From assembly GCF_038811545.1 (NCBI RefSeq), contig NZ_CP133319.1:2695516-2759515 (forward strand): a stretch of 64,000 bases of DNA, written 5' to 3'. This document shows positions 1-41,828 of this stretch, piece by piece. A program made the translations under genes and the position numbers. Source of the DNA: Rhodoligotrophos sp. CJ14 (GTDB taxonomy: Bacteria; Pseudomonadota; Alphaproteobacteria; Rhizobiales; Im1). The notes beneath the pieces are model-generated. The model was not told the origin of the DNA. It searched no databases and was given only the letters and a program-made list of their open reading frames with translations. The first letter of the stretch is position 1. The number at the start of each line of letters is the position of its first letter.

Positions 1-1026
1 CTCCAGACCCGCAACGCCGGACCTCGGAACGAGGAGCTCTATTCCACCACCAATAGGCCTACTGCGGATGGGCTTGCCGGTCTCCCGCGCGACTATACCG
101 GCCCACGGCTTGGACCGCCGCTGCCGGGCGACCTAGGCCGACCTATCCTGAACGCCCAGGATCGCGGACAACCCGTCGTGCCGCCAACCGTCCAGCCGAC
201 CGTGGACCCGGCGGAGCAGCGTCGTCTCGCCGAGCAGGAGGCCGCGCGAACGAGCCGTGTCTTCTTCCAGACCGAGGCGCGGACGCTTGCGGCTTCACCT
301 GCACCCGGCGCCGCTCTCGCCAACGCGAACCTGACCGGCCTTGGGATTCCCGGGCAATTCAACACGCCCACCGCTCAAGAGCGCGCGCAGGATCGGCAAC
401 TCGCCTTCCTCAATGCCGCCGCTGATCGCCGCACTGTCGCCCAGGATCGCGTCATGCCGCCAGCGTCACCCTACGTTCTGCAAGCCGGCGCCGTTATTCC
501 GGCCGCGCTAATCACCGGCATTCGCTCCGATCTACCCGGACAGATCACCGCACAGGTGACCGAGAACATCTACGACAGCCCGACCGGCCGCCTGCTCCTC
601 GTGCCCCAAGGCACCCGCATCATCGGCCAGTATGACAGCGCTGTGCAGTTCGGCCAGCGCCGGGTGCTGCTCGTGTGGAATCGCCTGATCTTCCCCAACG
701 GCCGCTCGATCGTCCTCGAGCGCCAGCCGGGGGCGGACGCGGCAGGATATGCGGGCCTCGAGGATGGCGTCGACTATCACTGGTGGGACCTCGCCAAGGC
801 AGCCGGCCTCTCCACGCTACTCAGCGTAGGCGCCGAACTGGCAATTAACGATGACGATCGCCTGCTCCGCGCCATCCGCAATGGCGGCCAGGACACGATC
901 AATGATGCGGGTCAAGAAATCATCCGCAGGCAGTTGAACGTCGCGCCGACGCTGACCATCCGGCCCGGCTTCCCGGTCCGCGTGATCGTCACCCGCGACC
1001 TCGTGCTCGAACCATATCGAGGATAG
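1..1026 (+). CDS. trbI: TrbI/VirB10-family conjugal transfer protein (5' truncated by window)
   Basis: The reading frame is open from the first base, so the true start lies upstream. About 341 residues are visible. The first 100 are Pro/Gln/Arg-rich and low in complexity, as in the periplasmic linker of TrbI. A VirB10-type beta-barrel domain follows, including LQAGAVIPAALITGI, the PQGTRIIGQYDS segment and a C-terminal PVRVIVTRDLVLEPY. In type IV secretion the family bridges the inner and outer membranes and energises the channel. The missing N-terminus would carry the membrane anchor. The DUF2274 gene two bases downstream matches the common trbI-DUF2274 order in alphaproteobacterial integrative conjugative elements, so this is probably the end of a trb operon. 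Confidence 0.9.
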   Translation, partial: LQTRNAGPRNEELYSTTNRPTADGLAGLPRDYTGPRLGPPLPGDLGRPILNAQDRGQPVVPPTVQPTVDPAEQRRLAEQEAARTSRVFFQTEARTLAASPAPGAALANANLTGLGIPGQFNTPTAQERAQDRQLAFLNAAADRRTVAQDRVMPPASPYVLQAGAVIPAALITGIRSDLPGQITAQVTENIYDSPTGRLLLVPQGTRIIGQYDSAVQFGQRRVLLVWNRLIFPNGRSIVLERQPGADAAGYAGLEDGVDYHWWDLAKAAGLSTLLSVGAELAINDDDRLLRAIRNGGQDTINDAGQEIIRRQLNVAPTLTIRPGFPVRVIVTRDLVLEPYRG

Positions 1027-1028
1027 CG

Positions 1029-1253
1029 ATGACAAAACTTAAGCTGGCCGCTCTCGAAGATGATAAGCCTGTCAGGGTATCCTTCGATCTTCCGGCAGAA
1101 GTGCACCGCGAGCTCATCGCATATGCCGACGTCCTGGGGCGAGAGACCGGCAAGCCGATTTCCGATCCCGTGAAACTTCTTCCTCACATGATCCGGCGTT
1201 TCATCGCAACAGATCGGGGGTTTGCAAAGGCACGCCGGCTAGGCAGGTCTTGA
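1029..1253 (+). CDS. DUF2274 domain-containing protein
   Basis: A 74-residue protein that begins two bases after the trbI stop, so it is almost certainly cotranscribed and translationally coupled. The sequence is charged: the N-terminal MTKLKLAALEDDKPVRVSFD is followed by a helix (LPAEVHRELIAYADVLG) and a basic C-terminus (KARRLGRS). This is the typical DUF2274 pattern. The family has no assigned biochemical role. It is known mainly from its place behind trbI in integrative conjugative elements and plasmids. The short strand-helix layout resembles ribbon-helix-helix-like proteins, but that reading is speculative. Conserved context makes it a reliable marker of the conjugation module rather than a gene of known function. 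Confidence 0.85.
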   Translation: MTKLKLAALEDDKPVRVSFDLPAEVHRELIAYADVLGRETGKPISDPVKLLPHMIRRFIATDRGFAKARRLGRS

Positions 1254-1326
1254 CCGCCAATGGGAATGTCTGCGACTTCACCATGCGGGCAACTACCGAT
1301 CATTCAGCTTCAGTGCGTCCTTGCCT

Positions 1327-1500
1327 TTACATGCGGGCAGGCGTCTGGTCCGCCTTCATTGATTTCGCGAGACTAACAAATCGCCGCAGGACGGGATTGT
1401 CGTTGCCAGGGAGCCATACTCCCGCGGTCGGAAGTATGTCCTCTTCGCCGATAACGGGTTTAAAAAACGGGGCGACGCTGGTACAGCGCGTCGGTGCCTG
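1327..1500 (-). pseudogene. C-terminal remnant of a LysR-family regulator
   Basis: On the minus strand a frame reads VAPFFKPVIGEEDILPTAGV, then a WLPGNDNPVLRRFVSL stretch, and ends in a stop at 1327-1329. It matches the last 45 or so residues of the intact LysR protein at 4881-5792 (LRFTPIGGSEDLLPTVGVWL, then PGNDNPALRRFVSLARAM), with many substitutions. Upstream of the fragment the homology stops abruptly and no helix-turn-helix part is present. It is therefore a decayed end of a paralogous regulator, left at the edge of the conjugation module. Confidence 0.8.
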
Positions 1501-1549
1501 ATCGCGAGACCTGCAAGAGACAGTTCGCTATTGGATTGGCGGCACTCTC

Positions 1550-1587
1550 AATCATTCCCGTCCAGCCTTCGCCGCGAAGGAATGATT
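1550..1587. repeat. Nested inverted repeat (possible transcription terminator)
   Basis: AATCATTCC at 1550-1558 and GGAATGATT at 1579-1587 form a perfect 9-bp inverted repeat. An inner CCTTC-GCCGC-GAAGG hairpin lies at 1566-1580. It sits 55 bp past the stop of the minus-strand LysR gene. No T-run follows on either strand, so a terminator role is only a guess. Confidence 0.35.
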
Positions 1588-1641
1588 CGAGGAAAATTGC
1601 GCCTGGTGAGGATAACGGCAGCGGGTGGTTTTTGCCTGAGT

Positions 1642-2520
1642 CTACGAGTATTCCGAAGCCGCGAAACGCGCCACCAGGAAATCCATGAACGCCTGCACCT
1701 TACGGCTGACGAGCCGGCGCGACGTATGCAAGGCCCAGATCTCCACCTCTCGCTTTGGTACTGCGCCCCAAGACGCCAGCCGTCCAGCTGCCACCTCATC
1801 GGCCGCCAGGGTGTTGGGCAACAGGGCTACGCCGACCCCCGCCAAGACCGCGTCCCTCACCACGAGATACGACGGTAGTCGCATCACCGGGTAAGGTTCG
1901 ACAGTGCCTGTCCATCCGTCCCCTTCCAGATGCCAGATAGCATCCTCCCGTTCGGCGGCCACGACCACAGCGGGGAAACGGGTGAGTTCGCGCGCGGGCG
2001 GGCGCGACAAATCGGGCGTCGCGACCAAGACCATATGGTCGCGCATGATACGCCGGCCGAGCAGGTCACCGTCTACGGCGCGGGGGTTGACGCGGATGGC
2101 CACGTCAAAGGATTCCGCCATCAAATCCACGTAGCGATCCTCGGCGACCGCCTCGATACGCACCTCGGGATAGCGGCGGCAGAAGTCCGCCGCGAGCCGG
2201 CCCAGCTGGCTGTGCGAGAACAATATCGGCGCTGAGACGCGCAACACGCCGCGCGGCCGGTCCAGCCCCTCAGCGATCATCCGCCCCGCCTCTTCAACCT
2301 CGTTCAGCAGATCGGCCGTCCGCTGGTACAAGGCCGCGCCGTCCTCGGTCAGGCGAAACCGCTTTCCGTCGCGCTCGATGAGGCGCACCCCCAGAGCATT
2401 TTCTAGTTCCCGTACCCGCCGCGACAAGGTGGCCTTGGGACGACCGGTGCGACGGCTCGCGCGGCTAAACCCGCCATCGGCAGCCACCCGGTTGAAATCT
2501 GCCAGCGCATCCAGGTTCAC
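1642..2520 (-). CDS. LysR-family transcriptional regulator
   Basis: A 292-residue LysR protein with a GTG start. Residues 1-60 form the winged helix-turn-helix (ADFNRVAADGGFSRASRRTG, then PKATLSRRVRELENALGVRL). The rest is the two-lobed LysR substrate-binding domain, beginning near GVLRVSAPILFSHSQLG. The length is normal. It is divergent from the MDR oxidoreductase at 2640, with 119 bp between the starts, and a dyad lies in that interval. LysR proteins usually control the divergent neighbour and themselves. Its relatives (DNA-binding domain plus GVLRVSAP core) are often regulators of quinone- or aldehyde-responsive oxidoreductases. The inducer cannot be read from the sequence. Confidence 0.9.
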   Translation of the reverse strand: MNLDALADFNRVAADGGFSRASRRTGRPKATLSRRVRELENALGVRLIERDGKRFRLTEDGAALYQRTADLLNEVEEAGRMIAEGLDRPRGVLRVSAPILFSHSQLGRLAADFCRRYPEVRIEAVAEDRYVDLMAESFDVAIRVNPRAVDGDLLGRRIMRDHMVLVATPDLSRPPARELTRFPAVVVAAEREDAIWHLEGDGWTGTVEPYPVMRLPSYLVVRDAVLAGVGVALLPNTLAADEVAAGRLASWGAVPKREVEIWALHTSRRLVSRKVQAFMDFLVARFAASEYS

Positions 2521-2537
2521 GAGGTCGTTCCAAGTTC

Positions 2538-2552
2538 GGGACGAAGTGTCCC
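2538..2552. promoter_or_regulatory. Dyad in the divergent LysR/MDR promoter region
   Basis: GGGAC-GAAGT-GTCCC is a perfect 5-bp inverted repeat in the 119-bp interval between the LysR start (2520) and the oxidoreductase start (2640). Its position fits a LysR operator. Assignment is from position and symmetry only. Confidence 0.45.
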
Positions 2553-2639
2553 AAATCTAGCACTTTTGGCTCCAGTTGGGAACGCTTACCTGACCAAAAT
2601 CGGGCGGCGCGCTCGCCCCTGTGAAAACAGGAGTCCGTT

Positions 2640-3569
2640 GTGCAAACCAATCGCGCATTCCGCTTGCATGCTTATGGTGGTCCAGAAGGAACGCGGGTGG
2701 ATGTCATCCCCAAACCGACGGCAGGAGCGCACCAAGTGCTGACCCAAGTGAAGGCCGCGGGTGTGAACGGAATAGACTTCAAGGTTCGGCAGGGCTTTGT
2801 CCGCGACGCTTTCCCCTTGTCACTGCCCGTAATCCTGGGGAGTGAAATGGCCGGCACCGTCGTGGAGGTCGGTCCGGAAGTCGAAGGTTTTGAGCCCGGT
2901 GATCGCGTAATGGGCTGGCTCGCCGGATTCGGCGCCTTTGCCGACTATGTGGCTGTCGATGCAGTCAAGCTTGCGCGCACGCCTGACGGGCTAAGGGATG
3001 TTCAGGCCGGCGCAATTCCACTGGCAGCGCTGGCGGCGTGGCACCTGATTCACACCGTGGGCGATGTACGTGCGGGCCAGACCGTGCTGATCCACGGAGC
3101 TTCGGGCAATGTGGGAACCTTCGCGGTTCAGTTCGCCAAAGCCGCAGGGGCCAGAGTTCTAGCGGTGACGGCTAACACCGGCATTGCCGCGGTCGCAGCG
3201 CTCGGGGCCGATCGAGTGATCGACCGTCAAAAAGAACGGTTCGAGGAGGTCGCGAGGGGCGTCGACTTGGCCGTCGACGTCGTTGGCGGCGAGGTGCTTC
3301 ATCGCACGTGGGCAGTCATGGCGCCCGGTGGCCTGGTCCTCTCCACAGTCACTCCCGAGGTTGCAAACGCGCCCGACGGCCTACGAGGACAATTCTCCAT
3401 GACCCAGCTCGATACTCCCCATCTCCAGGCTGTGGCCGATCAAGTGGCGGCAGGCACGCTGAAGTTTTCCGTGGGCGAGGTCGTGAGTCTGGCCGAGCTG
3501 GCTCACGCCATAGACCGCAACTGGAACGGCCGCGCGCAGGGCAAGATGGTGGTGGACTTCAACCGTTGA
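2640..3569 (+). CDS. MDR-family NADP-dependent quinone oxidoreductase / zinc-type alcohol dehydrogenase-like protein
   Basis: A 309-residue medium-chain reductase/dehydrogenase. The start is GTG at 2640 with an AGGAG site six bases upstream. Residues 1-120 are the GroES-like domain (QVLTQVKAAGVNGIDFKVRQ, then LGSEMAGTVVEVGPEVEGF). A Rossmann domain follows, with the nucleotide motif HGASGNVGTFAVQFAKAAGA. Catalytic zinc cysteines of true alcohol dehydrogenases are absent, which places it with quinone oxidoreductases that reduce quinones or enones with NADPH. It is transcribed divergently from the LysR gene and probably controlled by it. The likely role is detoxification of electrophiles. The substrate is unknown. 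Confidence 0.87.
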   Translation: MQTNRAFRLHAYGGPEGTRVDVIPKPTAGAHQVLTQVKAAGVNGIDFKVRQGFVRDAFPLSLPVILGSEMAGTVVEVGPEVEGFEPGDRVMGWLAGFGAFADYVAVDAVKLARTPDGLRDVQAGAIPLAALAAWHLIHTVGDVRAGQTVLIHGASGNVGTFAVQFAKAAGARVLAVTANTGIAAVAALGADRVIDRQKERFEEVARGVDLAVDVVGGEVLHRTWAVMAPGGLVLSTVTPEVANAPDGLRGQFSMTQLDTPHLQAVADQVAAGTLKFSVGEVVSLAELAHAIDRNWNGRAQGKMVVDFNR

Positions 3570-3803
3570 CCCGCCGGTTGCAGCGGCTCACGGCGTGCCT
3601 CGTCTCTCTCCGCCTGCGCACCGGCAGCTTCAGCTTTCATTGAATCGGCGGACAGCGTCTGCGCTGCCATCGCATCCGCCTCCCGCTGATCCTATGGGCG
3701 GAGATGTGCGGAGGACTGCCGCATCGCTTTGTCATTCTGCCAATCGCCACCAGCCTTAGGCTTCGATCTGTCACGCGCGAAAAAACAAAAGGGATCTTTT
3801 TCT

Positions 3804-4613
3804 ATGCCCGATCTTCATGCTGGATTTAGTGACCCGCAACGCGTGGATGTCTCTGCGCTCGTGGATTTTCTCAAACGCGTCGACAGCTATTCCCCGGTTC
3901 AGGCCATCCACGAAGCGATGCGAAGGATGCTCGAGCTCCGGCCGGGAATGCGGATATTAGACGCGGGCTGTGGCATCGGCCTGGAGGCGGCGCGGCTCGC
4001 CCGCATCCATCCGGAGGTCGAGTTCGTCGGCCTGGACCAGAACGACGAACTGCTGGCGATCGCGCGGCGCGTGCAGCTTCCGAACCTTTCGTGGGTCCAT
4101 GGGGGCCTCGAGAGCGCCGACCTGCCGGAGGCCGGGTTCGACGTGATCCGCACTGCGCGAGTACTGATGTATCTGCGCGACCCGCTCTTCGGACAGGTGT
4201 TAGACAGGTTTGTTCGGCTACTGCGGCCAGGGGGTCGGCTGGTGACGTTCGAGCTCGATTACGGCGCGATAATCCTCCCCAAGGGTCGGCACGACGACCA
4301 CGTGGTGCACGGGCTGACCGCCAGAATGGAGCGCGCAATGCCGCAGCCTTGGTGCGGGCGCAGGCTTCCCGATGAGCTTGTGACGCGTGGAATGACCGAC
4401 GTCACGGCTGACCCATTCGCGGTTTCCGTGGACGCTCCAGTCTGGATCCGCATTGTCCATGACACATTGCGCGAAGCGCTGCGGCAGGAGGCAAACGAGC
4501 CTCCTGAACTCGTGGCTTGGCTCGACGACTATTTCGCCCGCGTGGACGAGGCGCCTCTGCTGGCGGTGATCACCGGCATACTCACCGCCGCCCGCGTCCC
4601 CCGATCCCGATAG
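3804..4613 (+). CDS. SAM-dependent methyltransferase (class I, Methyltransf_11-like)
   Basis: A 269-residue protein. I chose ATG 3804 because AAAAGGGA lies about ten bases upstream; an in-frame start at 3729 would add an unconserved leader. Motif I is ILDAGCGIGLEAARLA (about residues 52-67), the acidic end of strand 2 is FVGLDQN, and the post-motif LLRPGGRLVTFELD is typical of class I methyltransferases. The C-terminal third is helical and may form the acceptor lid. It stands alone between the MDR gene and an SDR fragment, with no partner that points to a substrate. Small-molecule methylation is likely; nothing suggests a nucleic-acid substrate. Confidence 0.85.
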   Translation: MPDLHAGFSDPQRVDVSALVDFLKRVDSYSPVQAIHEAMRRMLELRPGMRILDAGCGIGLEAARLARIHPEVEFVGLDQNDELLAIARRVQLPNLSWVHGGLESADLPEAGFDVIRTARVLMYLRDPLFGQVLDRFVRLLRPGGRLVTFELDYGAIILPKGRHDDHVVHGLTARMERAMPQPWCGRRLPDELVTRGMTDVTADPFAVSVDAPVWIRIVHDTLREALRQEANEPPELVAWLDDYFARVDEAPLLAVITGILTAARVPRSR

Positions 4614-4651
4614 AGGCGAGGTGATGCATCGGCAGAAAATGGCATCACTTT

Positions 4652-4806
4652 GTCATGGCACGAACGCGGCGTGAGAAGTGGTCGAGACGATCGGCAAAGC
4701 TGCCGGCAGAGCCCACGTGATACAGGCCGACGTGTCGAAGCCGTTGAGATCGCCCGACTGTTCGAAGAAGCCGAGGCCCCTTCGGCGGGTTGGACATTGT
4801 CGTTGC
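4652..4806 (+). pseudogene. Remnant of a short-chain dehydrogenase/reductase
   Basis: Three reading frames in turn spell a typical SDR segment. The first reads CHGTNAA, a stop, then EVVETIGKAAGRAH and VIQADVSKP. The next frame gives VEIARLFEEAEAP. The third gives FGGLDIVVARA. This corresponds to roughly residues 35-90 of an SDR, through the strand before the NAG motif. One in-frame stop and two frameshifts mean it cannot be expressed. The N-terminal Rossmann glycine motif and the catalytic YxxxK part are both missing. Confidence 0.75.
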
Positions 4807-4880
4807 GCGAGCCTACCGGAACCCAACGCCTGACTAGCCAAAAAGAGGTGGGAAGTCGGATCGACGTATATCGTTCGAAC

Positions 4881-5792
4881 TTAGGAAGAATGTGCCCGCG
4901 CACCTCTCATGGCGCGAGCTAGACTTACGAAGCGTCTGAGCGCCGGATTATCGTTCCCTGGCAGCCATACGCCAACCGTGGGGAGGAGATCTTCACTGCC
5001 TCCAATCGGTGTAAATCGGAGGCCAGGAAAAGGCGTCGCGATGGCGGAATCGCTAGTCAGCGTGACACCAAACCCCATTGCCACCAAGTGAAACAAGCTC
5101 TCTCGACAAACTGAAAGTCGTCTCACCTGAGGCTGAGTTCCCAGCGTTGCGAGCCGCCGAATGAGGTAGTCATGGATCTCGGGACCAGGCTCTTCGCGGC
5201 TAACGATGAAGCGCTCCTCCTGAAGATCCGACCAATCGATGCTGTGACGCGACGCAAGCCGATGGCCTTCCGGCAGAGCACAGTAGACGTATTCATGCCA
5301 AAGCAGTTCCACATCACAATCCGATAGCTCTGGGACACCAGTAAAGAACGCTATGTCCAGACTTCGATCGCGTACTTGCCGAATCTGATCGCGCGAGCCT
5401 CCGTATGCGACATCAACGGTGACGCTTGGATGGACGCTTACGAACTCAACTAGCAGATCGCGAAGAAAGCCTGTCGCAAGGGAGCAGAGAAACCCGACCC
5501 GCAGAAATCCGCTTGAGCCGCTCCCCGCGCTTCGTGCAAACTTCACAGCATAGTCAAGGTCGCGTAAGGCAGCTTTGGCTTGTAGAATGAATTGCACGCC
5601 GGCCGCAGTTGGCCGAACCCCGGCGCGATCGCGCTCGAATAAAGAAACTCCAAGTTCGTCCTCAAGCGCACGGATTCTTCGACTAACAACCGACTGATCC
5701 GTACCAATGATGTTCGCAGCACGTCGAAAGCTTCGCTGCTCCAGAGCCACGATCGAATGCAAGATCGCGTGGAGGCTGATCCTCAGGTGCAT
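4881..5792 (-). CDS. LysR-family transcriptional regulator
   Basis: About 303 residues if it starts at 5792 (MHLRISLHAILHSIVALEQR). An in-frame start at 5906 would add 38 residues not expected for the family. The helix-turn-helix covers SFRRAANIIGTDQSVVSRRI, and the linker helix follows. The effector domain begins at GFLRVGFLCSLATGFLRDLL. The C-terminal WLPGNDNPALRRFVSL is unusual and recurs in the fragment at 1327-1500, so two related regulators once lay within 4 kb. It follows the serine hydrolase gene on the same strand after a 190-bp gap and may regulate it. Effector unknown. Confidence 0.86.
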   Translation of the reverse strand: MHLRISLHAILHSIVALEQRSFRRAANIIGTDQSVVSRRIRALEDELGVSLFERDRAGVRPTAAGVQFILQAKAALRDLDYAVKFARSAGSGSSGFLRVGFLCSLATGFLRDLLVEFVSVHPSVTVDVAYGGSRDQIRQVRDRSLDIAFFTGVPELSDCDVELLWHEYVYCALPEGHRLASRHSIDWSDLQEERFIVSREEPGPEIHDYLIRRLATLGTQPQVRRLSVCRESLFHLVAMGFGVTLTSDSAIATPFPGLRFTPIGGSEDLLPTVGVWLPGNDNPALRRFVSLARAMRGARAHSS

Positions 5793-14796: not shown

Positions 14797-15129
14797 CAAT
14801 TTGCGAGCACTCGCGCTGGGCTCGGGACAATGGGATACACGACCCCAACCATTGATAGGATCGGCAACGAGGGCATCAAATTCGTGGACCACTATGCCGA
14901 GCCATCCTGCACGGCTAGTGTACCCCGCCTTCGCGAGTGAAGGGAGATGGGCACACCTCCGCAGGCATGTCGAGCGCGGTTCCAGATTGCGCCGTTTCAA
15001 CCGAGCGGATGAGCGCGGCAGCAGCGAGCAGGACGGCTGGGTGCTGGCTAGGTCGGTGGAGCACTCAGCCGCCTGCTCACGGCTTGCCGGCCACCAGCCT
15101 CTTGAAGTGGTAAGCGTCTGAACTACATC
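14797..15129. other. Non-coding stretch between ampC and the heat-shock leader
   Basis: No gene, RNA or insertion-sequence end could be recognised on either strand. The short open frames do not resemble proteins I know. The heat-shock promoter presumably lies near its right end. Confidence 0.5.
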
Positions 15130-15230
15130 GGAAATGCCGGCCGCCAGAAGGGGCCGGCTGGTCGAGCGGGTGCGAACGCCCGGCGACCAAAGATGCCTTG
15201 TATCCATGTTGCTCAATGGAGGATGTGGCT
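15130..15230 (+). promoter_or_regulatory. ROSE-type RNA thermometer in the hsp20 leader
   Basis: The leader ends with TTGCTCAATGGAGGATGT seven bases before the start codon, closely following the ROSE consensus (a UUGCU anti-Shine-Dalgarno before GGAGGA). The terminal hairpin at 15204-15228 pairs CCATGTT with GATGTGG by standard and wobble pairs. It then has the bulged G typical of ROSE and CTC paired with GAG across an AATG loop, masking GGAGGA at 15218-15223. Two more hairpins lie upstream: GCCGGCC/GGCCGGC at 15136-15158 and a GTCG...CGAC stem enclosing CGGG/CCCG at 15161-15187. ROSE elements melt on heating and open the ribosome site of rhizobial small heat-shock genes. Confidence 0.82.
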
Positions 15231-15713
15231 ATGAGAACCGCTTTCGACTTTGCTCCACTGTTCCGATCGAGCGTCGGCTTCGATCGAATGCTGGATTCGC
15301 TGGAATCCGCGAGCCGCGTTGCGCCGATCGACAACTGGCCCCCTTACGACATCGTCAAGCTCGGTGAGGACGACTACCGCATCAGCATGGCGGTGGCCGG
15401 ATTCACGCGGGATGACCTGACCATCACTCAGGAGCAGAACATGCTGATGGTTGCGGGCCAGAGGTCGAGCAATGATGAGGCGAACGGACAATACCTGCAT
15501 CACGGTATTGCCAGCCGCGCCTTTCAGCGCCGCTTCGAGCTTGCCGACCACGTGAAGGTCGTCGGCGCCAGCCTCGTTAACGGTCTACTCACCATCGACC
15601 TGAAGCGCGAGCTTCCCGAAGAGATGAAGCCGCGCCGCATCGCGATCGCCTCGGGCGAAGCGCTACCGAAGGTGGAGACCAAGCAGATCGAGGCCGAGAA
15701 GCTGGCCGCCTAA
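15231..15713 (+). CDS. Small heat-shock protein Hsp20 (IbpA/HspA-like, class A)
   Basis: 160 residues. ATG 15231 is chosen because it follows GGAGGA within the thermometer hairpin. The alpha-crystallin domain runs from about YDIVKLGEDDYRISMAVAGF to ASLVNGLLTIDLKRELPEEM. It contains the conserved FTRDDLTIT strand and the NGLLTIDL (A/V-x-x-x-G-x-L) motif. The N-terminus MRTAFDFAPLFRSSVGFDRM is characteristic of IbpA-like rhizobial class A proteins. The role is an ATP-independent holdase for unfolding proteins in the cytoplasm. It heads a run of stress genes to FtsH, all on the plus strand. Regulation by temperature is expected from the leader. Confidence 0.94.
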   Translation: MRTAFDFAPLFRSSVGFDRMLDSLESASRVAPIDNWPPYDIVKLGEDDYRISMAVAGFTRDDLTITQEQNMLMVAGQRSSNDEANGQYLHHGIASRAFQRRFELADHVKVVGASLVNGLLTIDLKRELPEEMKPRRIAIASGEALPKVETKQIEAEKLAA

Positions 15714-15809: not shown

Positions 15810-16316
15810 ATGAGTGTCCGTGATCTGATCCCGTGGGGCCGCTCCAACAACCAGGTTCCCACCGTGTTTCGAGACGATGATCGCAACCCGTTCCTCTCGC
15901 TGCATCGCGAGGTGAACCGGCTGTTCGACGACGTCTTCCGCGGCTTTGACGGCCGTCTCCCGACGTTTGGCTCGCTGTCGTCGTTCAGCGGAGCTTGGCC
16001 GAGCGTCGAGATCTCCGAGACCGAAAAGGAGATCAAGGTGACGGCCGAGATTCCCGGCCTCGAGGAAAACGACATCGAGGTGCTGCTCGACGACGGCGTG
16101 CTGACGCTGAAGGGCGAGAAGCGCTCCGAAACGGAGGACAAGGACAAGCAGTTCTCTGAGCGCTTCTACGGCCGCTTCGAGCGCCGCATCCCGCTCGGGA
16201 TCGAGGTCGAGGAAGACAAGATCGACGCGCGTTTCAAGAACGGCGTGCTGAACATCGTGCTCCCCAAGAGTGCGAAGGCCCAGTCTCAGGTGAAACGCAT
16301 CGCGATCAAGAGCTGA
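15810..16316 (+). CDS. Small heat-shock protein Hsp20 (class C-like)
   Basis: 168 residues from ATG 15810, with a strong AAAGGAGGTAACC site. The alpha-crystallin domain begins at WPSVEISETEKEIKVTAEIP and continues through GLEENDIEVLLDDGVLTLKG and a flexible charged loop (EKRSETEDKDKQFSERFYGR). It ends at FKNGVLNIVLPKS. The sequence differs clearly from the first Hsp20, in line with the class A/class C pairs of rhizobia, which may form distinct oligomers. It lies 96 bp behind the first Hsp20 gene. No ROSE pattern is visible in its own leader, so its heat control probably comes from the shared transcript. Confidence 0.94.
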   Translation: MSVRDLIPWGRSNNQVPTVFRDDDRNPFLSLHREVNRLFDDVFRGFDGRLPTFGSLSSFSGAWPSVEISETEKEIKVTAEIPGLEENDIEVLLDDGVLTLKGEKRSETEDKDKQFSERFYGRFERRIPLGIEVEEDKIDARFKNGVLNIVLPKSAKAQSQVKRIAIKS

Positions 16317-16395: not shown

Positions 16396-17136
16396 ATGAT
16401 GCAGGAATATATCAGGCAGGCAGAAAAGAGAGGAATGACCCGGGTAACCGCGGCATGGCCCTCCAACGATAACCGACGCGCCCCGACTGCAATGGGGCGT
16501 TCGTGGTTCCCGGAGGATGCGATCGCCCGGATTTACAAGCCTTCCCGATCGGTCATGACATCCGGCAAGGCACGGACGATGGGCTGGCGGCTGACGTTCG
16601 AGCGGCGCACAGCGCCCTTCATCGAGCCACTTATGGGCTGGACGGGCGGCGACGACACGCTGACCCAGGTCGAGCTCAGCTTCCCGACGCGGGAGGCGGC
16701 CATTCGCTACGCCGAGCGGCAGGGTCTCCGCTACACGGTTCAATCCCATAATGGCGCGGCGGATAGCAAACGGCGCGCGGCGGGCTCAGCGCGTGCCTTC
16801 TCCGATGCGACGCTGAACAAACTCGGCCTGAAAGACCTTCAGAAGAGCTATGGGCGCGCGATCGATGGCGCCGCAGATCGCAACGATCCTTCGGGCCCTG
16901 AAACTTGGGGGTCTCCGCTGGATGTGGTCCGTGATCGCACGCTGTCGCTCGGTGCGAAGCGCTCGATCCTCATCAACTGGGCCTTCACGGAGTACCTGAT
17001 CGATCAGGCGACCAACGAGGGCATGCCGGAAAACAACCGGCCTTCGCGCCTCGACGAGGTCGAACAGGCGCTCCTCGCGCTCGAACGCGAGGTCGCGGAA
17101 GACCAACGTGCGTCAACTGCACGGAAAGCGGCATAG
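16396..17136 (+). CDS. NDUFS4-domain (ETC complex I subunit conserved region) protein
   Basis: 246 residues. Residues 35-115 match the NDUFS4-like domain: ARIYKPSRSVMTSGKARTMG, WRLTFERRTAPFIEPLMGWT, then GGDDTLTQVELSFPTREAAI and YAERQGLRYTV. That domain normally belongs to an accessory subunit of respiratory complex I. Here it is fused to a C-terminal part with SPLDVVRDRTLSLGAKRSIL and a coiled, acidic end (LDEVEQALLALEREVAEDQ), which is not in the respiratory subunit. It sits between Hsp20 and FtsH genes, not in a nuo cluster, so a stress role (for example protecting or repairing complex I) is possible but unproven. Confidence 0.82.
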   Translation: MMQEYIRQAEKRGMTRVTAAWPSNDNRRAPTAMGRSWFPEDAIARIYKPSRSVMTSGKARTMGWRLTFERRTAPFIEPLMGWTGGDDTLTQVELSFPTREAAIRYAERQGLRYTVQSHNGAADSKRRAAGSARAFSDATLNKLGLKDLQKSYGRAIDGAADRNDPSGPETWGSPLDVVRDRTLSLGAKRSILINWAFTEYLIDQATNEGMPENNRPSRLDEVEQALLALEREVAEDQRASTARKAA

Positions 17137-17144
17137 GTGCGGCC

Positions 17145-17468
17145 GTGGACCCGTTCGTCGTCTTCGATTGCGCAAAGGTCCTGCCGAACAGGTTCGCGCT
17201 GACGCTCGCGGCCGCTGCACGCGGCCGCGCGCTTCGCAGGGGAGCAGAGCCGCGTTCGGACCGGCTGGCGGCCGGCGCGGGCGACCTTGCGCTCCACGAG
17301 ATCGCGGAGGGCGCATTCACCCGGGCCGAGCTCGGATTGTTTCTCGAGGAACCGAGCGGACCGCAGCTCCTTCCTCGTCCTTCGGCACAGGATCCAGATC
17401 TTCGCGGTGGCGCTTCCCCAGAGAGCGCCGCCGCGCCCGTCTCCCGTTTCGGAGAGACGGCTCATTGA
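17145..17468 (+). CDS. RNA polymerase omega subunit-like small protein
   Basis: 107 residues from GTG 17145, eight bases after the previous stop. Residues 3-60 follow RpoZ: VFDCAKVLPNRFALTLAAAA, then RGRALRRGAEP and GDLALHEIAEGAFTRAEL. The NRF, the A-R pair before the basic run and the ALHEIAEG helix correspond to the NRFxLVLxAA and ALREIxEG motifs of omega. The C-terminal 40 residues are Pro/Ser-rich and unmatched. It is not the housekeeping rpoZ, which normally lies beside spoT. Inside this stress cluster it may act as an alternative omega-like factor. The family match is by eye; the function is inference. Confidence 0.7.
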   Translation: MDPFVVFDCAKVLPNRFALTLAAAARGRALRRGAEPRSDRLAAGAGDLALHEIAEGAFTRAELGLFLEEPSGPQLLPRPSAQDPDLRGGASPESAAAPVSRFGETAH

Positions 17469-17496: not shown

Positions 17497-17862
17497 ATGC
17501 TGAAGTTGCTGTCTTCGAATAGCCGGCCGGCGATCGATATCGTCAACATCGTTGCCGGTCTTGGTCTCTTTCTGTCTCCCTGGTACCTCGCGTACACGGG
17601 CGAGGCCTACGCCGCGTGGAATGCCTGGATCATCGGCGCCGTGGTTGCGCTGATCGCGATCGGCGCGCTGCTGGCGTTCCGTGAGTACGAGGAATGGGCG
17701 AACCTCGTCCTCGGTCTGTGGTCGATCATCGCGCCTTGGGCGCTCGGCTTCGCCGCTGTGACGGCTGCGGTGTGGTCCCACGTGCTCGCCGGCATTGTCG
17801 TCGCGGTGCTCGCCGCCAGCAATGTCTGGTTCATCCACAATCGTCCGCTGTCGACGGCCTGA
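17497..17862 (+). CDS. SPW-repeat membrane protein
   Basis: 121 residues with four hydrophobic helices. It carries two copies of the SPW signature, first FLSPWYLAYTGEAYAAWNAW and then SIIAPWALGFAAVTAAVWSH (with IAPW in the second). Each repeat contributes two transmembrane helices, which is the SPW family layout. Function is unknown. The gene begins with AAGGAGAG upstream, and lies 29 bp behind the omega-like gene and 68 bp ahead of ftsH. A role in membrane stress is suggested only by its neighbours. Confidence 0.85.
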   Translation: MLKLLSSNSRPAIDIVNIVAGLGLFLSPWYLAYTGEAYAAWNAWIIGAVVALIAIGALLAFREYEEWANLVLGLWSIIAPWALGFAAVTAAVWSHVLAGIVVAVLAASNVWFIHNRPLSTA

Positions 17863-17930: not shown

Positions 17931-19769
17931 ATGGAGATGAACAAGAAGACCCAATTCAATATCGGCTACTGGATTGTCGCGTTCTTCATTCTGATGGCGT
18001 TCCAGTATTTCTTTGCGACAGCCACGCAGGTCGCCCAAATTCCGTACAGCCAATTTGAAGCGTATCTGAACCAGGGCAAGATCGCCGAGGTGGCTGTTTC
18101 GGACCGATTCATACAGGGCCGCTTCAAGGAGCCGATCAACGGGCGGCCCATGTTCATCACGACCCGTGTCGAGCCCGACCTCGCGCGCCAGTTCCAGAGC
18201 CATGGTGTGGTCGTCACCGGCCAGATCGAAAGCACGTTCTTACGCGATCTCCTGTCATGGGTCGTCCCGGTCCTCGTGTTCGTCGGCGTGTGGATGTTCA
18301 TGCTCAAGCGCACGGGCGGCGACCTTGGCGGCGGGCTGATGCAGATCGGCAAGTCCAAGGCCAGGATCTATGTCGAGAAGGATACCGGGGTGACCTTCGC
18401 CGACGTCGCCGGCGTCGACGAGGCGAAGGATGAACTGAAGGAGATCGTCGACTTCCTCAAGGACCCGAAAGGCTATGGCCGGCTCGGAGGCCGCATGCCG
18501 AAGGGCGTGCTCCTGGTCGGCCCGCCCGGCACCGGCAAGACGCTGCTCGCCAAGGCGGTGGCGGGTGAGGCGGGCGCGCCGTTCTTTTCGATTTCCGGCT
18601 CGGAGTTCGTCGAGATGTTCGTCGGCGTGGGCGCAGCGCGTGTGCGTGACCTGTTCGAGCAGGCGCGCGCCACGGCGCCCGCCATCATCTTCATCGACGA
18701 GCTCGACGCGCTCGGGCGCGCCCGCGGCATCGGGCCGCTCGCCGGCGGTCATGACGAGAAGGAGCAGACGCTGAACCAGTTGCTTGTCGAGCTCGACGGA
18801 TTCGATTCATCGACGGGTCTCGTGCTGCTGGCCGCGACCAACCGGCCGGAAATCCTCGATCCGGCGCTGCTGCGCGCGGGCCGCTTTGATCGCCAAGTGC
18901 TGGTGGACCGGCCGGACAAGGCTGGGCGCATCCAGATCCTGAACGTCCATCTGAAAAAAGCTAAGCTCGCGAATGACGTGGAGGCGGAGAAGATCGCGGC
19001 GCTCACGCCGGGCTTCACCGGCGCGGACCTCGCTAACCTCGTCAACGAGGCGACCTTGCTCGCCACCCGCCGCAAAGCCGATGCGGTGGCGATGGATGAC
19101 TTCAACAACGCCATCGAGCGCATCGTCGCGGGGCTGGAGAAGCGCAACCGTCTGCTCAACCCGAAGGAGCGCGAGATTGTCGCCTATCATGAGACGGGTC
19201 ACGCGCTCGTCGCTATGGCGCTCCCCGGCGTCGATCCGGTGCACAAGGTCTCAATCATTCCGCGTGGCGTTGGTGCGCTCGGCTACACGATCCAGCGCCC
19301 GACCGAAGACCGCTTCCTGATGACGCGCGAGGAGCTGGAGAACAAGATGGCCGTGCTCCTCGGCGGCCGCGCCGCTGAGAAGATCGTCTTCGGCCACCTC
19401 TCCACCGGCGCCGCCGACGATCTCGCCAAGGTCACCGACATCGCCCGAGCGATCGTCACTCGCTACGGCATGTCGGAAAAGCTCGGCCATGTCGCGCTGG
19501 AGAAGGACCGTCGCTCCTACCTGGCCACCGACCAGCCGTATTACGGCCCGCAGGAGCGCTCCTATTCCGAGGAAACCGCGGCCGCGATCGACGAGGAGGT
19601 CAAGCGCATTGTCGACGAGACCTTCGAGAAGACGGTCAACCTCCTTTGCGAACGCAGGGACGCGCTCGAGCGCATCGCCCGCAGGCTTCTTGAGAAAGAG
19701 ACGCTCGACGAAAGGGAAATGGCCGCATTGGCCCGTCGGAAAGCGGTCGTAGCGGCGACCACGGCATGA
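17931..19769 (+). CDS. ftsH: ATP-dependent zinc metalloprotease FtsH
   Basis: 612 residues from ATG 17931. A first transmembrane helix lies at about residues 11-29 ([19 protein letters not shown]), a periplasmic domain follows, and a second helix is near [18 protein letters not shown]. The AAA module has Walker A GPPGTGKT, Walker [12 protein letters not shown] and the second-region [20 protein letters not shown]. The protease zinc site is HETGH in [16 protein letters not shown]. All catalytic parts are intact. FtsH degrades misfolded membrane proteins and selected cytoplasmic regulators. This copy is probably an extra, cargo-encoded FtsH next to Hsp20 genes, as in transmissible protein-stress islands of other proteobacteria. 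Confidence 0.95.
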
Positions 19770-19927: not shown

Positions 19928-21286
19928 CTACGCCGCTAAACGATCTTCAATACTCGGGCGGTGATCCTGTTCGCCGACGGCACTTCGCAGGAACTGATCG
20001 AGCGCTGCCCGTCGCGAAGTCCGGTCCAAGGAATAAGCTGTCTGCTTGAACTGGATCCCGTCCAGAAGTCCTTGGATGTAGCCGGAGATGGTATCGGCAG
20101 CCATGATCAGCGCCGTGTCGAGCGTGTGAATGTATTTGCTCGTGACCGATCCCTTGGCGTGGCCGACGAGCGCCGCGATCGTCATCTCCGTGAAACCGAG
20201 ATCGTTGGCGATGCTGGCGAAGCTGTGCCGCAGAACATGCGGCGTCACGTCGGCGAGTGGCGAGTGCTTGAAGATTTGCTCCCAGTGGTTCGGGAAGCTG
20301 CCGAAGGCGTTGTCCTCTCCCTCGCCGGGAAACACGTAGGTGCCAACATCGTCAGTCCGCCGCTGCTCGAGATACTCCACGACCGGCAGGCCGATAGCGC
20401 GAATGGACTCACCTTCCTTGCTGTCCTCCAAGCGCAAGCAGCTCGAGTGCGTGTCGGCCTCGGTCCACTTCAGCCGGATCATTTCGCTGCGTCGGCAGCC
20501 GGTCATCGCGATCTGGCGAATGATGTCCACCGTCATGGCGTACTTTTCTTGCCTGGCGGCGTCGCGCAGCATCTGCCCGGGAGTGCGGTATTCCGCCTCC
20601 GAGAGCCGGCGCTTGCGCACGTTGTCTTTTGGCTTGCGGAGGCCGTGAGCCGGGTTGACCTCTATGATACCTGCCTCAACCGCGTAGGTGAGGATACCGC
20701 CGAGCAATCCCACCGTACGTGTCGCCGTTCCCACGCCGCCGCGGACGATCGCCTTTCCACGAAGCTTTTTAGTCTTGACCGATACGCGCGTCTTTCCGGC
20801 CATGATGTCCTTGAGAACTTTGTTTATGTCGGCCTTGGTAAGGTCCTTCACCCGCCGCGTGCCCAGGAGGGGAATGATGTGACGCTCGATCCGGCCGGTA
20901 TCGGTGAGCACGGTCGTCGGTTTTTTTGGCCGCCCGCCCTTGCCCAGGATCAGTCCCGCCCGTAGGTCGTCAACATAGCGAGAGCACAGCTCCTTCACGG
21001 TGAGCGCCTTGTGGTCCAGCTGGCGTTCTTCGGCCGGGTTCTCGCCCTGCGCGACCCGGCCGAACTGGATCTTGGCTTCCTGTCGTGCGGTCTCAGGCGT
21101 CCAAACACCGTGAAGTCCTATGGTGTAGCGACGCGACCTGCCTTTGCTGCGGTACTGAATGACGTAGCTGCGCTTTCCTGAGGTGAAGACGCGCAGGCCA
21201 AAGCCTGGCAGCTCGTCATCCCAGATCACGTAATCCTTCTCGGCGGGTTCGGCGGCATCAACAACCCGCTTCGAGAGCTTAGGCAT
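19928..21286 (-). CDS. int: Tyrosine-type site-specific integrase (DUF4102 N-terminus), copy A
   Basis: 452 residues from ATG 21286, with GGGAGGAATGCC upstream. The N-terminal [20 protein letters not shown] begins the arm-binding DUF4102 domain. The catalytic domain contains [14 protein letters not shown] (first Arg), [15 protein letters not shown] (His-x-x-Arg), [16 protein letters not shown] (His and the nucleophile Tyr). All catalytic residues are present. The enzyme integrates or excises its element at a tRNA 3' end. It reads leftwards, away from the tRNA-Arg fragment at 21464-21511, and is a close paralogue of the integrase at 40421-41779. Confidence 0.93.
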
Positions 21287-21317
21287 GGCATTCCTCCCTT
21301 CCAATGCCGATCTCTCG

Positions 21318-40420: not shown

Positions 40421-41779
40421 CTACGCCGCGAGGCGCGACTCTTCCTTCAAATCTTGAGGCCTCCCGCCAACGGCCTTGCGAAGGAAGCGGGCAAGAGCCG
40501 CCTTCCGGGAATCGCGATCGAGTGCATAGTCGGTTTGCTTGAACTCCACGCCATCGAGTAGTCCCCCGATGTAGCCAGAGATCGTGTCCGCCGCCATGAT
40601 CAGCGCGGTGTCGAGCGTATGAATATATTTGCTCGTGACAGAGCCTTTGGCATGTCCGACCAAGGCCGCAATCGTAACCTCGGTAAAGCCGAGGTCGTTT
40701 GCGATACTTGCGAAGCTGTGCCGCAGGACGTGCGGGGTAATGTCAGAAAGTAATGTATCTTCGAAGATCTTCTTCCAGTGATTGGGGAAGCTGCCGAAAG
40801 GATTGTCATCGCCTTGGCCGGGGAAAACGTAGGTCCCCGCATTTTCGGTCCTGCGGCTCTCCAGATAGTCGACAACCGGAAGACCGATCGGCCTGACCGA
40901 GGCGCCTTCCTTGCTGTCGATCAACCGCAGGCAGCTCGCTTCTGTGTCAGCCTCCTCCCACCGCAATGAGAGCATCTCCGAGCGGCGGCACCCAGTGAGA
41001 GCGATCTGGCGGATGATCTCTACTGTCATCTCATATCTCTCGTCCTTCGCGGCCTCCTGAAGGATCGCGCCGAGCGTTCGATACTCAGCCTCGGTCAATC
41101 GGCGTTTGCGAACGTTGTCCTTCGGCTTCCGGACCCCGTGCGCCGGATTCGCCTCGATGATTCCCGCCTCCACGGCATAAGTGAGGATGCCGCCGAGCAG
41201 ACCGACGGTCCGCGTGGCCGTGCCGGCGCCGCCACGTACGATGGCCTTCCCGCGAAGCTTTTTGGTCTTGACCGACACACGGGTCTTCCCCGCCATGATG
41301 TCCTTCAGGACCTTGTTGATGTCGGCTTTCGCAAGGTCTTTGACTCGCCGCGTACCGATGAGCGGAATGATGTGACGATGGATGCGTCCGGTATCCGTGA
41401 CGATCGTGCTGGGCTTCTTCGGGCGATCTCCCTTGCCGAGAATAAGACCGGCCTCCAAATCTCGGAGGTACAGGTCACACAACTCCTTGACGGTGATTGC
41501 CTTGTGATCGAGTTGCCGTTCCTCTGCAGGATTGTCGCCTCGCGCAACGCGGCCCAACTGCGCTTTCGCTTCCTGTCGCGCTCCTTCCGCCGTCCACACA
41601 CCATGCAGGCCAATGGTGTAACGTCGCGAGCGACCTGCGGATCGGTATTGAATGATGTAGCTGCGCTTGCCCGACGCGAACACGCGCAGACCGAAGCCGG
41701 GCAATTCGTCGTCCCAGATGACGTAATCCTTGCCGCGGACTTCAGCGGCATCGACGACTCTCTTCGTAAGCTTAGTCAT
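40421..41779 (-). CDS. int: Tyrosine-type site-specific integrase (DUF4102 N-terminus), copy B
   Basis: 452 residues from ATG 41779 with GGAGAAGGCCC upstream. It aligns end to end with the copy at 19928-21286 and most residues are identical. All catalytic features are kept ([45 protein letters not shown] with the Tyr nucleophile). It reads leftwards from the tRNA-Arg fragment at 41957-42004 and shares with copy A the same two CGTAAGCA repeats and a matching 28-bp segment of leader. The two integrases probably recognise related sites, which would explain tandem insertion. Confidence 0.93.
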   Translation of the reverse strand: MTKLTKRVVDAAEVRGKDYVIWDDELPGFGLRVFASGKRSYIIQYRSAGRSRRYTIGLHGVWTAEGARQEAKAQLGRVARGDNPAEERQLDHKAITVKELCDLYLRDLEAGLILGKGDRPKKPSTIVTDTGRIHRHIIPLIGTRRVKDLAKADINKVLKDIMAGKTRVSVKTKKLRGKAIVRGGAGTATRTVGLLGGILTYAVEAGIIEANPAHGVRKPKDNVRKRRLTEAEYRTLGAILQEAAKDERYEMTVEIIRQIALTGCRRSEMLSLRWEEADTEASCLRLIDSKEGASVRPIGLPVVDYLESRRTENAGTYVFPGQGDDNPFGSFPNHWKKIFEDTLLSDITPHVLRHSFASIANDLGFTEVTIAALVGHAKGSVTSKYIHTLDTALIMAADTISGYIGGLLDGVEFKQTDYALDRDSRKAALARFLRKAVGGRPQDLKEESRLAA

Positions 41780-41809
41780 GGGCCTTCTCCAATTCAGGCC
41801 CATTGTTCG

Positions 41810-41828
41810 CGTAAGCACAGCGTAAGCA
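41810..41828. repeat. Tandem CGTAAGCA repeats in front of integrase B
   Basis: CGTAAGCA at 41810-41817 and 41821-41828, 11 bp apart, the same arrangement as in front of integrase A. Likely arm-type integrase sites. Confidence 0.6.

Follow-up and report, generated by a model that had tools for sequence, protein, structure and literature searches.

The window, a stretch of 64,000 nucleotides from Rhodoligotrophos sp. CJ14, contains a heat-shock gene cluster that is headed by a promoter-like sequence, CTTGAA-N16-CTACAT (15101..15128, +), a candidate site for sigma70 or RpoH. This lies upstream of a ROSE RNA thermometer (15137..15237, +), which scores 66.7 bits against Rfam RF00435 (gathering score 45) and covers the start codon of the first of two hsp20 genes. 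Hsp20 gene A (15231..15713, +; PF00011, E 1.7e-19), whose start codon was read from the sequence, encodes an IbpA-like small heat shock protein, and Hsp20 gene B (15810..16316, +; PF00011, E 4.5e-22) has GGAGG a few bases 5' of its ATG. The third gene (16396..17136, +) encodes an NDUFS4-domain protein in which PF04800 matches residues 44-120 (E 2.3e-26), flanked by an N-terminal extension and a C-terminal extension of about 125 amino acids, neither with a Pfam match; on many plasmids of alphaproteobacteria the full-length form of this protein is found together with the two Hsp20 proteins. An ORF with a GTG start (17145..17468, +) then encodes a protein of 107 amino acids, here named omega2, and is followed 28 nt downstream by a gene for an SPW-repeat membrane protein (17497..17862, +; PF03779, E 1.2e-25) and by one for an FtsH-family ATP-dependent zinc metalloprotease (17931..19769, +; TIGR01241, 795.5 bits, cut-off 600). 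The earlier note had placed an omega-like RNA polymerase protein at this ORF, between an NDUFS4-domain gene and an SPW gene in a heat-shock/FtsH cluster, and both the domain matches and the gene order bear this out; the ROSE element and the loss of ppGpp-site residues described below had escaped it.

The order ROSE, hsp20, hsp20, NDUFS4-domain gene, omega2 is found in all 21 loci examined in full (the window and 20 others), which are partly non-independent, some pairs being near-identical. At each of the 21 a ROSE element above the Rfam gathering score occupies the same place at the first hsp20. Downstream of omega2 the SPW gene is present in 20/21 loci, and FtsH and a DegQ protease in most. 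The gene order, the short gaps and the lack of convincing terminators, terminator-like sites in the operon region being close in number to the expectation from shuffled sequence, suggest that the genes from hsp20 through the NDUFS4-domain gene and omega2 to SPW are co-transcribed. With regard to the promoter, nearly all orthologous loci have, in the corresponding position, CTTGA followed about 16 nt on by an A/T-rich block (for example CTTGAA-N16-TTATAT); a sigma70 scan of the operon region found no site, and a strict heat-shock-sigma pattern matched at one locus only among the orthologous loci. In a Shinella plasmid the second hsp20 is interrupted by an IS66-type insertion (positions 804-5163 of that locus), which leaves omega2 and SPW intact but separates them from ROSE.

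The omega2 protein contains the motifs NRF, AAAARGRALRRGAEP and ALHEIAEG, from which the earlier note had recognized it. A profile search against Rpb6/omega, proposed there as a check, gave a match to Pfam PF01192 (RNA_pol_Rpb6) of 29.9 bits (E 5.6e-7), above the cut-off of 26, and omega2 proteins from 11 further genomes or plasmids reach 28.7-37 bits. The protein falls below the NCBIfam rpoZ equivalog cut-offs (TIGR00690, 16.7 versus 23.6 bits; NF001579, 20.2 versus 58 bits) and is thus divergent. When the omega2 profile was searched against the PDB, 23 of the 24 matches were omega chains (top match 7ye1_E, E 1.6e-9) and no other chain matched convincingly, and the same profile recovered the canonical omega in 4/4 genomes of the window's family. 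Alignment of the omega2 profile with that of 33 canonical alphaproteobacterial omegas by hhalign extended without gaps over 66 columns (residues 4-69), with a probability of 98.1% and an E value of 1.1e-13. On these profile comparisons omega2, which consists of a core (residues 1-67) and a variable tail (residues 68-107), is a homologue of the RNA polymerase omega subunit. A structure model built from a five-sequence alignment was of low confidence (mean pLDDT 58.5, about 69-79 across residues 11-60) and placed helices at residues 9-31, 45-57 and 60-67. Searches with this poor model by Foldseek and VIA returned no significant structural match; omega chains made up seven of the eight Foldseek rows, but with E >1.

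A canonical rpoZ, encoding a protein that begins MARVTVEDC, is present in the same genome at contig position 4693811, some 2 Mb from omega2, and a canonical omega is likewise encoded by each of the eight further whole genomes in which omega2 was found; the two subunits therefore coexist in the same genomes. An omega was found in 348 of 367 sampled alphaproteobacterial genomes and more than one omega in only three, one of which is the window's genome while the remaining two comprise a genome with two equal-scoring copies and an incomplete assembly. In a tree of 54 core sequences the 21 omega2 proteins, which have long branches, are separated from the rest by a branch supported at 100/100. This clade indicates a single origin of omega2 followed by much divergence, the alignment being too short to place the parent omega. 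The rpoZ copy, the tree, the synteny and the profile-profile alignment together uphold the earlier proposal that a mobile stress cluster supplies a second omega in addition to the canonical subunit.

At least 25 orthologues of omega2 were identified, nearly all in Hyphomicrobiales, with one in Paracoccus, and many of them on conjugative plasmids. A direct search yielded 16 rhizobial plasmid records with the gene, 11 of them predicted to be conjugative, and further copies were reached through the NDUFS4-domain gene in Rhizobium Q54, R. etli 8C-3, Mesorhizobium ciceri and Paracoccus pantotrophus (Rhodobacterales). The R. etli 8C-3 copy lacks an ATG where the gene usually starts, and its first residue was taken as M. 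Among sampled genomes omega2 occurs in 5/397 in the order and in 3/397 in one other family of that order, and none was found outside the alphaproteobacteria. Additional weak matches to the omega2 profile in the class and phylum searches (50-58 bits) proved to be canonical omegas with the MAR start and were rejected. Omega2 is absent from the three relatives within the window's family, none of which has colinear flanks of the island. A tyrosine recombinase (integrase) gene (19928..21304, -; PF00589, E 4.3e-16; PF13356, E 2.4e-15) adjoins the operon; a search for a tRNA that might serve as attachment site found none within the 64-kb window. Absence from the relatives, the lack of colinear flanks and the adjacent integrase support horizontal acquisition.

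The frame of the omega2 ORF is conserved in more than 20 loci and the median dN/dS of the core is about 0.21, against about 0.67 for the tail (Nei-Gojobori, 21 loci), values that are rough as dS is near saturation. The ORF is thus coding, and its core, judged by these ratios, is under purifying selection. The fast-evolving tail (window 17390-17465 and its orthologues) often terminates in AAAPVSxxxE[AT]VH. It could be argued that omega2 is a functionless relic hitchhiking on mobile DNA, as the copies on four plasmids (NGR234, Mesorhizobium B1-1-8, Pelagibacterium H642 and Agrobacterium 12D13) are frameshifted, internally deleted or truncated. Such decay shows that the gene is dispensable; the core, however, is under purifying selection across distant replicons, 25 orthologues are readable through it and the position of the gene is fixed, and we consider the relic explanation very improbable. 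In at least some of the four plasmids with a disrupted omega2 the hsp20 genes remain intact, and in a related cluster of Phenylobacterium zucineum no omega2 is annotated.

Comparison of 25 omega2 proteins with 33 canonical alphaproteobacterial omegas revealed which parts of the subunit have been kept. Each member of the omega core set (NRF, L19, R26, R28, G33, A49-L50 and E52-I53) is retained in 22-25 of the 25 omega2 proteins; R26, R28, G33, A49, L50, E52 and I53 are kept in 25/25, and D8, F17, L19 and A54 in 24/25. Thus the two findings that the earlier note had said would count against an omega, no match to the omega profile or loss of the residues that contact beta', are not what was observed, as the profile matches and the core residues common to all alphaproteobacterial omegas are retained. 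Compared with RpoZ (PF01192/Rpb6), omega2 shares the core NRF-L-R-R-G...AL-EIA in a gapless alignment, but is a second copy in a heat operon, has neither the MAR-V-T N-terminus nor the D-x-D-K-N loop and carries its own variable tail. Three further positions that do not vary in canonical omega (R51, V47 and A27) are mostly changed, and some beta' contacts may have been lost together with Site 1, which is described below. These substitutions raise the possibility that the omega fold has been repurposed outside RNA polymerase, for example as a partner of the upstream NDUFS4-domain protein, to which omega2 is probably translationally coupled. The omega2 start lies 8 nt past the NDUFS4 stop, which is overlapped by a Shine-Dalgarno-like AGGTG; the spacing is similarly close in annotated plasmid copies and the two genes are adjacent in 21/21 loci. 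Adjacency by itself, however, is no proof of interaction, and the residues retained are those of the omega core, which makes such a role quite unlikely and less likely than one in the polymerase.

At the N-terminus A2, R3, V4, T5 and E7, and in the D-x-D-K-N loop region D41, D43, K44, N45 and V47, are kept in 0/25 omega2 proteins whereas they are nearly or fully invariant in the 33 canonical omegas; A2, R3 and T5 of the M-A-R-[VI]-T N-terminus are present in 33/33 of the latter. Where canonical omega has M-A-R-V-T, omega2 has M-[D/N]-P-x-[V/I]. In the E. coli enzyme, omega residues 2-5 together with beta' R417 and K615 coordinate the phosphates of ppGpp at Site 1, while beta' I619, D622 and R362 contact its base, and deletion of omega residues 2-5 reduces ppGpp binding to background, with a Kd above 100 uM (PMC7676912). 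The host beta' retains R417, K615, I619 and D622, and has lysine at the R362 position. With residues 2-5 of Site 1 absent in 25/25 omega2 proteins and the beta' side mostly kept, the suggestion in the earlier note that a second omega could alter the response of the polymerase to ppGpp gains specific support. It should be emphasized, however, that an E. coli polymerase combining the omega 2-5 deletion with three beta' substitutions bound ppGpp only about 2-fold less than wild type, although its transcription responded very poorly (PMC7676912), and loss of these residues thus need not abolish binding in every context. The host genome also encodes a DksA-family protein, and an effect of ppGpp through Site 2 may therefore remain.

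The explanation that we regard as moderately probable is that omega2 is a heat-induced alternative omega that replaces the canonical subunit and yields an RNA polymerase without ppGpp Site 1. According to this proposal an omega paralogue that has spread horizontally would be made when heat opens the ROSE thermometer and the hsp20 operon is expressed. The protein would then bind beta' in the place of canonical omega, forming an alternative core enzyme in which beta' is still folded and chaperoned but in which the Site 1 response to ppGpp is missing. Such blindness would be expected, as the N-terminus and loop of omega2 no longer fit the omega half of Site 1. Incorporation into the polymerase through beta', exchange of one omega for the other and a benefit in heat are each predictions; as a precedent for the importance of omega in heat, Synechocystis without the subunit is heat-sensitive (PMC4227741).

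The main rival to an alternative, ppGpp-blind omega is that omega2 is a heat-stable backup, which, as the canonical subunit does, mainly aids the folding and assembly of beta' at high temperature, the loss of Site 1 residues then reflecting relaxed constraint rather than selection for ppGpp blindness. In favour of this explanation are the chaperones and proteases that neighbour omega2 in the operon, the contrast between its conserved core and drifting tail (dN/dS noted above) and the chaperone function in beta' folding that has been described for omega (PMC5811629). The new N-terminus, however, is far from random, with D or N at position 2 in 25/25 omega2 proteins, P at position 3 in 22/25 and F at position 7 in 22/25, and looks like a new constraint. 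We consider a purely supporting role possible but doubtful, although the two explanations overlap and both could be true.

Residues conserved in omega2 itself (F7, S27, R37, E/D47, F58 and E62), together with the recurrent tail ending such as AAAPVSxxxEAVH, may instead point to a docking platform, by which omega2 would direct a regulator or a sigma factor to promoters used in stress. The analogy is with Rhodobacter capsulatus, in which direct contact between GafA and omega activates gene transfer agent genes (PMC9638019). In both cases an alphaproteobacterial omega would be a control point of RNA polymerase; there, however, a regulator touches the one canonical omega, while here a second omega is supplied. 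As the conserved operon contains no dedicated regulator gene and the tail evolves fast, being absent or different in several orthologues, docking is unlikely, and less likely than exchange of the subunit.

As a rule, bacteria retune their RNA polymerase by exchange of sigma factors or by small ligands, and the core subunits are regarded as fixed. If omega2 does act as an alternative subunit, a conserved omega that lacks the ppGpp-binding part and resides in a heat operon would constitute a natural Site 1 mutant, and deletion of this single gene would allow a direct test of what Site 1 contributes in alphaproteobacteria. In cells with omega2, heat may bring into use a polymerase whose alarm response is altered. 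More tentatively, we propose that a mobile, ROSE-controlled omega swapped into RNA polymerase in heat removes Site 1 and so uncouples transcription from the alarmone, a stress switch in a core subunit that is spread by plasmids. The family assignment as such is not new, as many copies already carry the name 'DNA-directed RNA polymerase subunit omega' from PGAP and other annotators, and the statement in the earlier note that no description was known holds in a narrower sense: in the open-licence literature no published account of a second, mobile, plasmid-borne or thermometer-controlled omega was found.

Known heat-shock systems resemble the omega2 operon in part. As in rhizobial ROSE-controlled hsp20 genes (RF00435), the thermometer is directly 5' of the first hsp20, but the omega2 operon is longer by the NDUFS4-domain, omega2 and SPW genes and often by those for DegQ and FtsH. 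With the tLST it has in common a mobile cluster, two small heat shock proteins, FtsH, often a DegP/Q protease and duplicates of core genes. In contrast with the tLST, it lacks the ClpG/ClpK disaggregase, YfdX and thioredoxin, and contains an RNA polymerase subunit and ROSE. Neither the stretch from ROSE to FtsH in the window nor the annotated plasmid operons contain a disaggregase gene, and the sHsp20-ClpG/ClpK core by which a tLST is recognized is thus missing. A review of the tLST describes similar mobile heat clusters and mentions neither RNA polymerase nor omega. If the proposed role is correct, a core transcription subunit joins the kinds of gene carried by mobile stress-tolerance clusters.

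A second tyrosine integrase gene, similar in build to the one beside the operon, lies at 40424-41818, and the pair flanks a gene block that encodes a pyrimidine/AMP-type phosphorylase, a beta-CASP metallo-hydrolase, a phosphoketolase, a PRPP synthetase, a P-type ATPase and an acetate kinase. Beyond the acetate kinase is an exporter of the HlyD/FtsX type.
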